Of a stretch of 64,000 bases of DNA, positions 11,500 through 19,042 are shown piece by piece. Each line of letters begins with the position of its first letter. The first letter of the stretch is position 1. The translations under genes were made by a program, and so were the position numbers. The notes below the pieces were generated by a model, which was not told the DNA's origin, searched no databases, and saw nothing but the letters and a program-made list of their open reading frames with translations. Source of the DNA: Deltaproteobacteria bacterium GWB2_55_19 (GTDB taxonomy: Bacteria > Desulfobacterota > GWC2-55-46); assembly GCA_001797465.1 (NCBI GenBank), contig MGPQ01000010.1:124001-188000 (forward strand), in the 5' to 3' direction.

Positions 11500-11695
11500 G
11501 GAAAACTCCCCTTGACTAAATTTTTGTCCTGTGCGAATATTTTCGTTTGCAGGCGTAAGCCGTCGATTTCAGGTTGGTTTTCAGACGTCGTCTATCCGGC
11601 TGGCCTTTAATACAGAATAATAGCCTGAAATAATCATAATTTCAAGGTTTAAAAAACGGCCTTCACGGGGGCAAACCCCCGCGAGGGGTCTCCTT

Positions 11696-11782
11696 GCCGA
11701 AGTGGCGGAATTGGTAGACGCGCTAGATTCAGGTTCTAGTGGGTGAAAGCCTGTGGGGGTTCGAGTCCCCCCTTCGGCACCA
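11696..11782 (+). tRNA. tRNA-Leu (anticodon CAG)
   Basis: 87-nt class II tRNA. The acceptor arms GCCGAAG and CTTCGGC pair, and ACCA is encoded. The D-arm contains GGTAGACGC. The anticodon stem CTAGA/TCTAG encloses TTCAGGT, giving anticodon CAG (reads CUG). A long variable arm precedes the T-arm GTTCGAGTCC. Its final 22 nt are duplicated at 11944-11965. Confidence 0.97.
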
Positions 11783-11943
11783 AAATAAAAAAGGGTATGG
11801 TTACCCTTGACCCTTTTATAGATTGAAGAGGACTCGAACAGCGGTCCGAGCGCCGAGTAAGCGAGGATGAGGCCTTGCGGGAGCAGGGCCGGAAGCGAGG
11901 GCGCCCGGGTCGGGCGAAGATGCGGGCGCATCGAGCAGAGACC
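11783..11943 (+). other. Structured spacer between tRNA-Leu and its duplicated 3' end
   Basis: No gene is seen here. The first part holds a perfect 7-bp hairpin (AAGGGTA-TGGT-TACCCTT). After it, GGACTCGAAC at 11830 is the inverse complement of the tRNA T-arm GTTCGAGTCC. It could therefore pair either with the tRNA or with the downstream copy. The rest is rich in GCGAG/CGCC blocks that could fold into a long RNA hairpin. Confidence 0.55.
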
Positions 11944-11965
11944 TCGAGTCCCCCCTTCGGCACCA
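11944..11965 (+). repeat. 22-bp direct repeat of the tRNA-Leu 3' end
   Basis: Identical over 22 bp (TCGAGT, six C, TTCGGCACCA) to positions 11761-11782 of the tRNA, 183 bp downstream, including the encoded CCA. It resembles an attachment-site duplication or a tRNA-derived repeat. Confidence 0.85.
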
Positions 11966-12044
11966 TTTTTTTGTTGGAAATCCTTTCCATCTGCCTGACG
12001 CTCCCCCTCAATGGGGTCTTTTAAATGGTTTTTAAGTCTCCCGT

Positions 12045-17512: not shown

Positions 17513-17603
17513 CCTTATACGCGAGGGGAGTCCGAACGGACTGAGAGTCTTCATAACGAAGAGACCCTAACGACCTGATCTGGGTAATGCCAGCGTAGGG
17601 AAG
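17513..17603 (+). promoter_or_regulatory. TPP riboswitch (THI element)
   Basis: The conserved cores are visible: GAGGGGAGTCC, then GGACTGAGA, then ACCCTAACGACCTGATC, then TGGGTAATGCCAGCGTAGGG. The outer stem pairs CCTTATACGC with GCGTAGGG. It binds thiamine pyrophosphate and represses the downstream thiamine operon. A terminator-like hairpin follows at 17643. GGCGG near 17605 could pair with CCGCC of the terminator as an anti-terminator, so control is probably by transcription attenuation. Confidence 0.95.
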
Positions 17604-17642
17604 CGGCGGAAGTCTTTTTTTAAATGCGAGGCATTCGCGCCA

Positions 17643-17674
17643 GAGCCGCCCCTGTGGGCGGCTCTTTTATTTTT
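17643..17674 (+). terminator. TPP-riboswitch terminator hairpin
   Basis: Perfect 9-bp stem GAGCCGCCC/GGGCGGCTC with loop CTGT, followed by TTTTATTTTT. The U tract runs directly into the ATG at 17675, so the same structure could also block ribosome access. Confidence 0.82.
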
Positions 17675-19042
17675 ATGGATATGAACGATATAATAGTAGA
17701 TACCCGACAGATAGAGGAGCTCCTCGAAGGGGGCGCAAAGGCCTCGCGCGAGGATATCGCCCTGATATTAGAGAGGGCCGCCCTCGGGAAAGGGACATCC
17801 CTTGAGGACGCCGCCGCCCTTTTGTCCATTAAGGACGAGGAGGCGCTCTCGGCGCTCCTTAAGAAGGCCGGAGATGTCAAGGACAAGGTCTTCGGCAAGA
17901 GGGTAGTCCTCTTCGCGCCGCTCTATCTCTCCAACTTCTGCACGAACGGGTGCGTATACTGCGGCTTTCGTAGCGCCAACCGCTCTGTCGAGAGAAAGGC
18001 GCTTACGCCGGAAGAGGCCGTCATCGACGCAAAGGCCCTTGAGGCGATGGGTTTTAAAAGGGTGCTCCTCGTAACAGGCGAGGACCCGAGGTACGGCGTC
18101 GATTACATAGCCTCCTGCGTAGAGGCCATATACGCGAATACCGGCATGAGGATAGTCCATGTGAACGCGCCTCCGATGGATATTGCGTCCTTGAGGCGCC
18201 TTAAGGACGCCGGGGCCGGGGTCTACCAGTCCTTCCAGGAGACATACCACAGACCGACGTACGAAAAGGTACACCCGCACGGGAACAAGAAGGACTACGA
18301 CTTTAGAATAAAGGTCATGGACAGGGCGATAGAGGCCGGGTTCGAGGACGTGGGCATAGGCCCGCTCCTCGGACTCTATGACCACAGGTTCGACTGCCTC
18401 GCAACGATCGCGCATTCCAAGCACCTTTTTGAAAGGTTCGGCGCGCACGCGCACACGGTCTCGATCCCGAGGCTCCGCCCGGCTGAATCTGGCTTAAAGG
18501 ATGTGCCACACCCGGTTTCCGACCTTGAGCTTAAGAAGATCGTCGCGGTCTTCCGGCTCGCCATACCGAGCGCGGGTGTCGTGGTATCCACAAGGGAGGG
18601 GGCGGCCTTAAGGAGCGAACTGCTCCACATCGGCGCGACCCAGTTGTCAGCCGCGTCCAGAACGAACCCCGGAGGCTACGCCCAGGGGAAGTCCCTTGAG
18701 CAGTTTTCGACGAACGACCAGAGGTCCTTGCCTGAGGTGATGTCATCCGTCGTCGCCGAGGGCTTTATCCCGAGCCTATGCACCACCTGCTACCGGGTGG
18801 GGAGGACCGGCGCGGAGTTCACGAGAAAGACCGTCGCCGGAGAGATGGAAAAGTTCTGCCAGGCGAACGCGCTCCTTACCCTCAAGGAATACATAGAGGA
18901 CTACGCGGAGAACGGCCTTCGTGAGGAGCTTGGACACACAATAGAAGACGGCCTCGGGGAGATAAAAGACCCTTCGATAAAAAAGGCGCTGGAAGACAGA
19001 TTGAAAGAAATCGAAGAGGGCAAGAGGGACATCTACTTCTGA
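17675..19042 (+). CDS. hydG: HydG-type radical SAM tyrosine lyase in the ThiH position
   Basis: Radical SAM enzyme of 455 aa. HydG and ThiH both cleave tyrosine to dehydroglycine and p-cresol. HydG then makes CO and cyanide for the [FeFe]-hydrogenase H-cluster, whereas ThiH feeds thiazole synthesis. The SAM-cluster motif is 'CTNGCVYC' (CX3CX2C). The C-terminus has 'CTTCYRVGRTG...C' with exact CX2CX22C spacing, the second-cluster motif of HydG that ThiH lacks. 'DVGIGPLLGLYD', 'RPTYEKVHPHG' and 'NALLTLKEYIEDYA' are also HydG-like. Yet it heads a TPP-riboswitch operon and overlaps thiS by 1 nt, so a ThiH role is likely. No strong ribosome site; ATG 17681 is an alternative start. Confidence 0.85.
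   Translation: MDMNDIIVDTRQIEELLEGGAKASREDIALILERAALGKGTSLEDAAALLSIKDEEALSALLKKAGDVKDKVFGKRVVLFAPLYLSNFCTNGCVYCGFRSANRSVERKALTPEEAVIDAKALEAMGFKRVLLVTGEDPRYGVDYIASCVEAIYANTGMRIVHVNAPPMDIASLRRLKDAGAGVYQSFQETYHRPTYEKVHPHGNKKDYDFRIKVMDRAIEAGFEDVGIGPLLGLYDHRFDCLATIAHSKHLFERFGAHAHTVSIPRLRPAESGLKDVPHPVSDLELKKIVAVFRLAIPSAGVVVSTREGAALRSELLHIGATQLSAASRTNPGGYAQGKSLEQFSTNDQRSLPEVMSSVVAEGFIPSLCTTCYRVGRTGAEFTRKTVAGEMEKFCQANALLTLKEYIEDYAENGLREELGHTIEDGLGEIKDPSIKKALEDRLKEIEEGKRDIYF

Follow-up and report, generated by a model that had tools for sequence, protein, structure and literature searches.

Hairpin-rich repeats behind tRNA and tmRNA genes in at least three bacterial groups carry arms that match the local tRNA

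A duplicated 3' end behind tRNA-Leu(CAG)

Why should the 3' end of a tRNA gene be found twice, the second time on the far side of a short structured stretch? In the window, by which we mean the whole 64,000-nucleotide stretch of Deltaproteobacteria bacterium GWB2_55_19 analysed here, the last 22 bp of a tRNA-Leu(CAG) gene, CCA included, recur exactly 183 bp downstream (TCGAGTCCCCCCTTCGGCACCA), with 161 bp between the two copies (11783–11943; Table 1). An exact 22-mer would recur within about 200 bases with a probability of about 200/4^22 (our own arithmetic), which places the duplication far beyond chance. The intervening stretch includes the reverse complement of the T-arm (GGACTCGAAC), and the RNA fold of 11783–11975 was better than that of 199 of 200 dinucleotide shuffles (z −2.5). 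The duplication, the inverted T-arm and the structured spacer had all been pointed out in an initial annotation made from the sequence alone, and we confirm each of them.

Table 1. Features of the tRNA-Leu(CAG) locus and the unit behind it (window coordinates).
Feature	Position	Strand	Basis
tRNA-Leu(CAG) gene, CCA encoded	11696..11782	+	ARAGORN; Rfam RF00005, 58.1 bits
Proximal copy of the duplicated 22 bp, from T-loop T55 to CCA	11761..11782	+	Sequence
AT-rich spacer, 47 nt, with a weak hairpin and locus-specific sequence	11783..11829	+	Sequence; family distances; orthologous spacers
Inverted T-arm GGACTCGAAC, opening with the 5' strand of stem P1	11830..11839	+	Sequence; model alignment
Conserved core with P2, P3, P4 and purine-rich internal loops	11840..11943	+	Model R2 match; covariation
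Core hairpin P3, loop GGGA	11871..11890	+	Model alignment; family pair counts
Core hairpin P4 tip, loop GGGC here (GGA in 108/119 copies)	11919..11932	+	Sequence; loop counts
Distal exact copy of the tRNA 3' end: P1 3' strand first, then acceptor 3' strand and CCA	11944..11965	+	Sequence
Run of 7 T right after the distal copy, where the downstream flank starts	11966..11972	+	Sequence; flank start by analogy with two relatives, one of which has an empty site

The locus holds a single unit and no tandem array, and its distal copy starts at T55, one base before C56 of the T-loop. Only one match to the family covariance model R2 was obtained in the window at E ≤ 1 (11830–11951, 68.7 bits, E 1.6e-14), the window copy being itself among the 119 copies from which this model was built. 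We rejected a protein gene as an explanation, as those ORFs of at least 60 aa that cover the unit run opposite to the tRNA, on the minus strand. A 116-aa ORF (...GAEGGTRTPTG...) at 11581–11931 on the minus strand, antisense to both the tRNA and the unit, is probably spurious, and the inverted T-arm motif may account for similar hypothetical proteins in annotations. Elsewhere in the window, a TPP riboswitch (17514–17618, 70.7 bits) is found just upstream of an ORF (17624–19042) which we take to resemble a ThiH/HydG-type radical SAM protein.

A widespread family of units at tRNA and tmRNA genes

The window element is clearly a member of a family of DNA repeats, rich in hairpins and about 120 bases long, found at tRNA and tmRNA 3' ends, and the existence of this family rules out a chance duplication. 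The order of parts is the tRNA 3' end, a locus-specific spacer, the inverted T-arm, a hairpin core of about 105 nt and a direct copy of the 3' end of the unit's own tRNA. A DNA search of the genome from which the window comes (2.6 Mb in 21 contigs, with 41 RF00005 matches) gave related stretches, and a survey of the downstream flanks of 41 distinct ARAGORN tRNAs (some cut by contig ends) together with additional model matches placed units behind eight tRNA genes (Leu-CAG in the window, Leu-GAG, Ser-CGA, Ser-GCT, Ser-GGA, Tyr-GTA, Arg-ACG and SeC, the last with two tandem units), and also behind the tmRNA and a tRNA-Pro-like 3' end on contig 21. All 11 covariance-model matches in this genome lie behind a tRNA, a tmRNA or a tRNA 3' end.

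Two covariance models were used, R1 built from seven copies of this genome and R2 from 119 copies. R1 identified units in 36 of 59 related genomes, so that the pattern first noticed behind tRNA-Leu is conserved in relatives as well as at other tRNA loci of its own genome. With R2, units were found in 16 of 297 genomes of the same phylum (own relatives counted in). Two further samples centred on the spirochaete Brucepastera, where 55 of 100 genomes had units, and on an Omnitrophota genome, where 20 of 117 did. A sequence pattern scan of named genomes gave at least 119 stretches, and R1 was run on 80 of 119; among the matches listed for these 80 loci there were clear units in Deltaproteobacteria MAGs and Spirochaetes (Treponema, Brucepastera and other MAGs) plus one Omnitrophota locus at 61.8 bits and two more at 27–28 bits, and most of the remaining matches were near chance. 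Brucepastera parasyntrophica, a carrier that can be cultured, has units at its Ser-GGA and Ser-TGA tRNAs. When R2 was applied to 25 genomes reached through the scan, the three with units were all Omnitrophota, and none was found in the 22 from other groups. The family is therefore widespread, with members in at least three bacterial groups. Carriage by viruses was discarded as an explanation after 26 viral stretches with the pattern gave weak model matches (five at E ≤ 1, the best 23.4 bits over 48 nt).

The family appears to be undescribed in Rfam and in the literature searched. At the gathering score no Rfam family matched the window element or ten loci from other groups, a permissive search of five loci of the same genome (E up to 10) returned only low-scoring matches to unrelated families, and the listing-level records of the open literature held nothing on such a repeat family.

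Both arms match the local tRNA

In the first set of units, ARAGORN placed a tRNA or tmRNA on the same strand no more than 700 nt upstream of 104 of the 119 copies (Ser 37, Pro 23, Leu 20, SeC 7, Tyr 5, Arg 3, Val 3, Trp 2, Met 2 and tmRNA 2 among them), with most of the other 15 at contig ends or behind a tRNA-like 3' end. The distances between tRNA and unit cluster at 18–26 and 47–67 nt, and the larger distances include later units of arrays and interrupted units. In a second set of 80 distinct matches there was a tRNA or tmRNA upstream in 67 (including Ser 23, Met 10, Glu 6, Arg 5, tmRNA 4, Gln 3, Pro 3, Lys 3, two each of Trp, His, Ala and Thr, and one each of Asn and Gly) and none in 13, some of which have visible tRNA-like ends.

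Both arms of the unit match the local tRNA, whichever one it is. We compared the arms with tRNA tails using 39 of 40 R1 matches (a 5'-truncated one was omitted), 34 of which had a tRNA, and the longest match of the direct arm to its own tRNA tail averaged 18.0 nt compared to 6.9 nt for the tails of other amino acids, with 9.7 and 7.1 nt, respectively, for the inverted arm; for each arm the own tRNA was above the mean of the others in 33 of 34 copies. For the 67 of 80 distinct matches used from the second set, the corresponding values were 16.2 and 5.6 nt (direct) and 12.7 and 6.3 nt (inverted), with the own tRNA higher in 66 of 67 for each arm. Even an unusual T-loop is mirrored in the arms, as seen for a tRNA-Ser(CGA) with TTCAAAT and its unit with AGGGATTTGAACC.

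The upstream limit of the copied segment is almost constant. Of 148 units no more than 130 nt from their tRNA, 29 had too weak a match to be placed and 119 were placed, 103 of them copying C56 and 16 not, and in 97 of the 103 the identity starts exactly at this T-loop position. The 3' limit is ragged, lying 0–60 nt past the tRNA end (60 nt was our counting limit). None of 38 copies behind tRNA genes lacking an encoded CCA carries CCA, which means that these copies stem from gene DNA or an unprocessed transcript and not from mature tRNA, and reverse-transcribed copying of mature tRNA is ruled out by this result. Among positions that differ between the tRNA and its distal copy, the inverted arm agrees with the copy in 15 cases, with the tRNA in seven and with neither in three, several of these being alignment artefacts; where the two are the same, the arm matches neither at 239 positions compared to 971 at which all three agree.

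Gain, loss and copying between tRNAs

We read 26 loci for the orthologous tRNA-Leu(CAG) position, and of the 19 with the tRNA, 13 have a unit, two have relics consisting of the left part of a unit (L124 and L129), and four are without. In three of the 13 units (L111, L113 and L130) the distal copy is broken. In one relative with an empty site (G027) the flank aligns with the sequence past the distal copy of another (G010; score 62.5) and not with the sequence past the G010 tRNA (−9.0), and this orthologous empty site points to one clean gain or loss.

When sister species were compared, core identity was 0.81 for units at the same tRNA (62 pairs) and 0.67 for units at different tRNAs (556 pairs), and within a genome it was 0.68 from one tRNA to another (221 pairs), from which it follows that units are mostly inherited by locus and movement is not frequent. 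Copying between tRNAs is suggested by genome G058, in which four units, at Leu-TAG, Pro-TGG, Pro-CGG and Ser-CGA, have a core identity of about 90% (0.90–0.93 for the pairs listed) and arms which fit their different tRNAs, with P4 tip stems that differ at one to three of four pairs while pairing fully. Among copies at different tRNAs, the ten most similar pairs (identity of at least 95% at unpaired positions) show that quick stem change is general for P2 (identity 0.76) and P4 (0.78 for its tip), with values of 0.97 for P3 and 0.98 for P1, the last meaning that these ten pairs provide no example of arm rewriting.

Stem covariation and the pattern of substitution

The stems of the units covary strongly with almost no G-U pairs, and their mode of change is unlike that of an RNA such as the SRP RNA of the same genomes. 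In alignment A4 (119 copies) 94.3% of 3899 cells were in standard pairs, with a covariation score of 0.481 compared to 0.155 after shuffling and less than 0.05 when the pairing was slid, and in alignment A6 (83 matches, 79 distinct rows) the values were 91.2%, 0.605, 0.157 and less than 0.09. It should be noted that both were aligned by a structure-aware model, which biases them towards pairing, and that the statistics ignore relatedness; A4 derives from a non-random choice of 100 loci, the best R1 hits in relatives plus Leu-CAG orthologues (L097, L103 and L191–L195 are among those omitted), and A6 from 59 chosen loci. In P1, the helix that joins the inverted arm to the distal copy, paired cells make up 96.1%. 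The conserved portion of the unit consists of loops and internal loops, and unpaired core positions are kept across phyla.

Changes in the inner stems of A4 comprised 49 G-T and 39 A-C mispairs, 44 one-sided and 646 two-sided changes (267 with a transversion), and those of A6 comprised 46 G-T, 21 A-C, 39 one-sided and 616 two-sided changes (434 with a transversion). SRP RNA from 25 genomes of the family gave 93 G-T, 11 A-C, 36 one-sided and 34 two-sided changes (two with a transversion), a control of only 25 sequences which are less diverged and were aligned without a model. The difference between the G-T to A-C ratios of A4 and SRP RNA (49:39 vs 93:11) was significant (Fisher p 1.5e-7), and among the standard pairs of the inner stems G-U accounted for 1.6% (A4) and 2.4% (A6), compared to 11.3% in SRP RNA and 5.9% in the tRNA stems of the same loci. 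Homogenisation of repeat arms by template switching has been described (PMC8604942). The near strand symmetry of A4 and the double changes without intermediates are as expected from such switching; conversely, the excess of G-T over A-C in A6 counts against a purely DNA-level reading, and some RNA-level selection is possible (46:21).

A proposed DNA-level explanation

We consider the best reading of these units, with about an even chance of being right, to be that they are palindromic DNA repeats targeted to the T-loop with arms homogenised by template switching. A unit would enter, or be copied, with one junction fixed in the T-loop, and the tRNA 3' end would be duplicated on entry so that the tRNA remains intact. 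The inverted arm and the core stems would stay paired at the DNA level through template switching between inverted repeats during replication, which would also make the arms come to fit each host tRNA, while tandem units might be gained and removed by slippage between the 3'-end copies. A benefit to the host would not be needed. What counts against this DNA-level reading, besides the A6 mispairs, the inheritance of cores by locus and the ten closest pairs with their unchanged P1, is the conserved unpaired core, which a mere hitchhiker would need only if it served propagation. We found no mobilising enzyme, and the Y1 transposase, the one enzyme surveyed, was uncorrelated with the units.

A bolder proposal, which we regard as possible but on balance doubtful, is that the units belong to a class of self-propagating, non-coding folded DNA of about 120 nt which enters tRNA and tmRNA genes before C56, takes the arms of its closing stem from the target, and settles behind almost any tRNA without breaking it. 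Movement may then use single-stranded hairpins and replication with no dedicated transposase, and the E. coli RtT RNA would be a domesticated or decayed relative. tRNA genes are well-known landing sites for mobile DNA, and a gene-free unit with a fixed T-loop position and a target-matched closing stem, present in three or more bacterial groups, would mean a new use of these sites, with its stems a natural record of template switching.

Comparison with E. coli RtT and a possible small-RNA explanation

RtT (rttR, RF00391) is an E. coli RNA found behind tyrT and tyrV and reported to be released as a stable RNA upon tRNA processing; its function has remained unclear. The tyrT/tyrV array is reported to have been described earlier as a 178-bp sequence repeated 3.14 times from which the RNA is released. 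Our family resembles RtT in layout, with a unit behind a tRNA, a hairpin core (which in RtT has GAGCGCCAGCGAGAGAG), a duplicate tRNA 3' end that runs from the T-loop onwards (AATCCTTCCCCCACCACCA in RtT, two bases past C56) and an inverted segment complementary to that copy (GGGGAAGGAT). Tandem units which include the tRNA 3' end are also shared, although the window locus is single. RtT follows tRNA-Tyr in the K-12 stretch we read, whereas units of the family follow many tRNAs, tmRNA and SeC, and to our knowledge arms tailored to such a range have not been described for RtT.

RF00391 gave no match in the window, at five loci of the same genome (E up to 10) or at ten loci of other groups, while the four K-12 units used as a positive control scored 133–138 bits. 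In the reverse direction, R1 found nothing at E 0.01 in the K-12 locus, and with filters off four of the five best R2 hits overlapped RtT units, the best at only 11.6 bits (E 0.043); the cores of RtT and of our units may be related. RtT is itself variable, as it was matched in 4680 of 5426 E. coli genomes (at the megablast level), and in E. coli SK1144 there are two tandem tRNA-Tyr genes with an annotated coding gene 17 bases behind the second. Our units could give a possible family context to RtT.

The main rival to the DNA-level reading is that the units encode a structured small RNA cut like RtT from the tail of a tRNA precursor, in which cleavage at the two CCA ends would free the unit and the purine-rich loops would bind a protein or modulate tRNA maturation. 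This is consistent with the fixed orientation and short distances behind tRNA and tmRNA genes (the clusters at 18–26 and 47–67 nt), the very strong covariation with conserved loops, a layout equal to that of the K-12 tyrT/rttR array, and the A6 excess of G-T over A-C. We nonetheless think it rather unlikely given the scarcity of G-U in the inner stems relative to SRP RNA and tRNA stems, the near strand symmetry of A4, the existence of relics and empty sites, and a perfect hairpin of at least 6 bp beside T-rich sequence found ahead of the unit in 11 of 35 spacers of 36–130 nt. The units are either unusual hitchhiking DNA or an overlooked small RNA, and of the two, hitchhiking at the DNA level is better supported, short of proof.

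Integrative elements, CsrA, a cis-acting switch and REP sequences

A fixed start in the T-loop (97 of 103 at C56) is also what might be left by tiny non-autonomous integrative elements bounded by the attL and attR sites of a tyrosine recombinase, as one class of tRNA-targeting integrases crosses over in the T-loop; the clean empty site at Leu-CAG and the tandem units agree with this, and like known elements of this type the units leave the tRNA intact with its 3' end duplicated around the inserted DNA. We judge this explanation improbable, since it leaves the target-matched inverted arm unexplained and is set against targets spanning many tRNA species and tmRNA, a ragged 3' limit (0–60 nt), and a gene-free insert of about 160 bp without an integrase. 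The initial suggestion of a very small inserted element stands insofar as the flank of the empty relative aligns after the distal copy and many other tRNAs have such units, but what we see is a repeat family and not a lone attL/attR scar.

The GGA in the loops (P3 112/119, P4 108/119; GGA also stands within GAGGA in 113/119) resembles CsrA-binding sites, and like the hairpins of CsrB, CsrC and RsmZ (the CsrB repeat motif is CAGGAUG) it might titrate CsrA/RsmA, more so in tandem arrays. The surplus of GGA is modest (6.7 per copy vs 5.3 in shuffles), the P4 loop in the window is GGGC, substitutions are DNA-like and a match to an Rfam family at the gathering score is absent. The genome of the window has csrA, but 10 of the 36 carriers lack it, some of them being incomplete genomes, and 11 of the 23 non-carriers possess it; we have rejected such a sponge, for all its conserved loops, as very improbable on the grounds that csrA does not track the units.

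Least probable of these is a cis-acting switch in which the inverted arm, which is complementary to the T-arm of its own tRNA, pairs with the nascent transcript and slows folding or processing. The inverted arm also pairs with the distal copy in a conserved stem (96.1% of P1 cells), the differing positions, several of them artefacts, at most lean towards that copy (15 vs 7), and a terminator-like hairpin precedes the arm in 11 of 35 longer spacers; the earlier idea that a T-arm copy competes with the tRNA finds no support here. REP/BIME and MITE-like repeats are likewise short, non-coding, imperfect palindromes in intergenic regions with tandem forms, but our units differ from REP/BIME in sitting at tRNA 3' ends with a terminal stem that fits the host tRNA, and a REP/RAYT system was dismissed as PF01797 (Y1_Tnp) was absent at E 0.001 in 16 of 36 carriers and present in 12 of 23 non-carriers.

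Irregular units and other small repeats

Several arrays terminate in a partial unit ending near GAGCGCCGA, which may come from slippage between the GCCGA repeats of the two stem sides. The array behind tRNA-Leu(GAG) (L025, G000:C19:174300-175800) has 116 N within its tandem units (674–789) with the same core sequence on either side. At L026 (G000:C21:1200-2700) a unit (~520–590) lies behind a tRNA-Pro-like 3' part where ARAGORN finds no complete tRNA, and this contig may carry an integrated element that brought the tRNA fragment.

The unit behind tRNA-Arg(ACG) (L029, G000:C10:85100-85900) is split at ~398–499 by about 91 bp with GCGCCGAGCAG as a direct repeat on both sides. In the same genome, stretches that resemble this one and end in GCGCCGAGCAG are found behind tRNA-Gly(CCC) and, reversed, behind tRNA-Pro(TGG), and for this reason a second small repeat may target the tRNA-linked units. 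Another palindromic repeat, GTTACTTTCTTTTT...GAAAAAGAAAGTAACCAAAGAAAAA, is present downstream of tRNA-Leu(CAG) in several relatives (L115, L117, L125 and L128).
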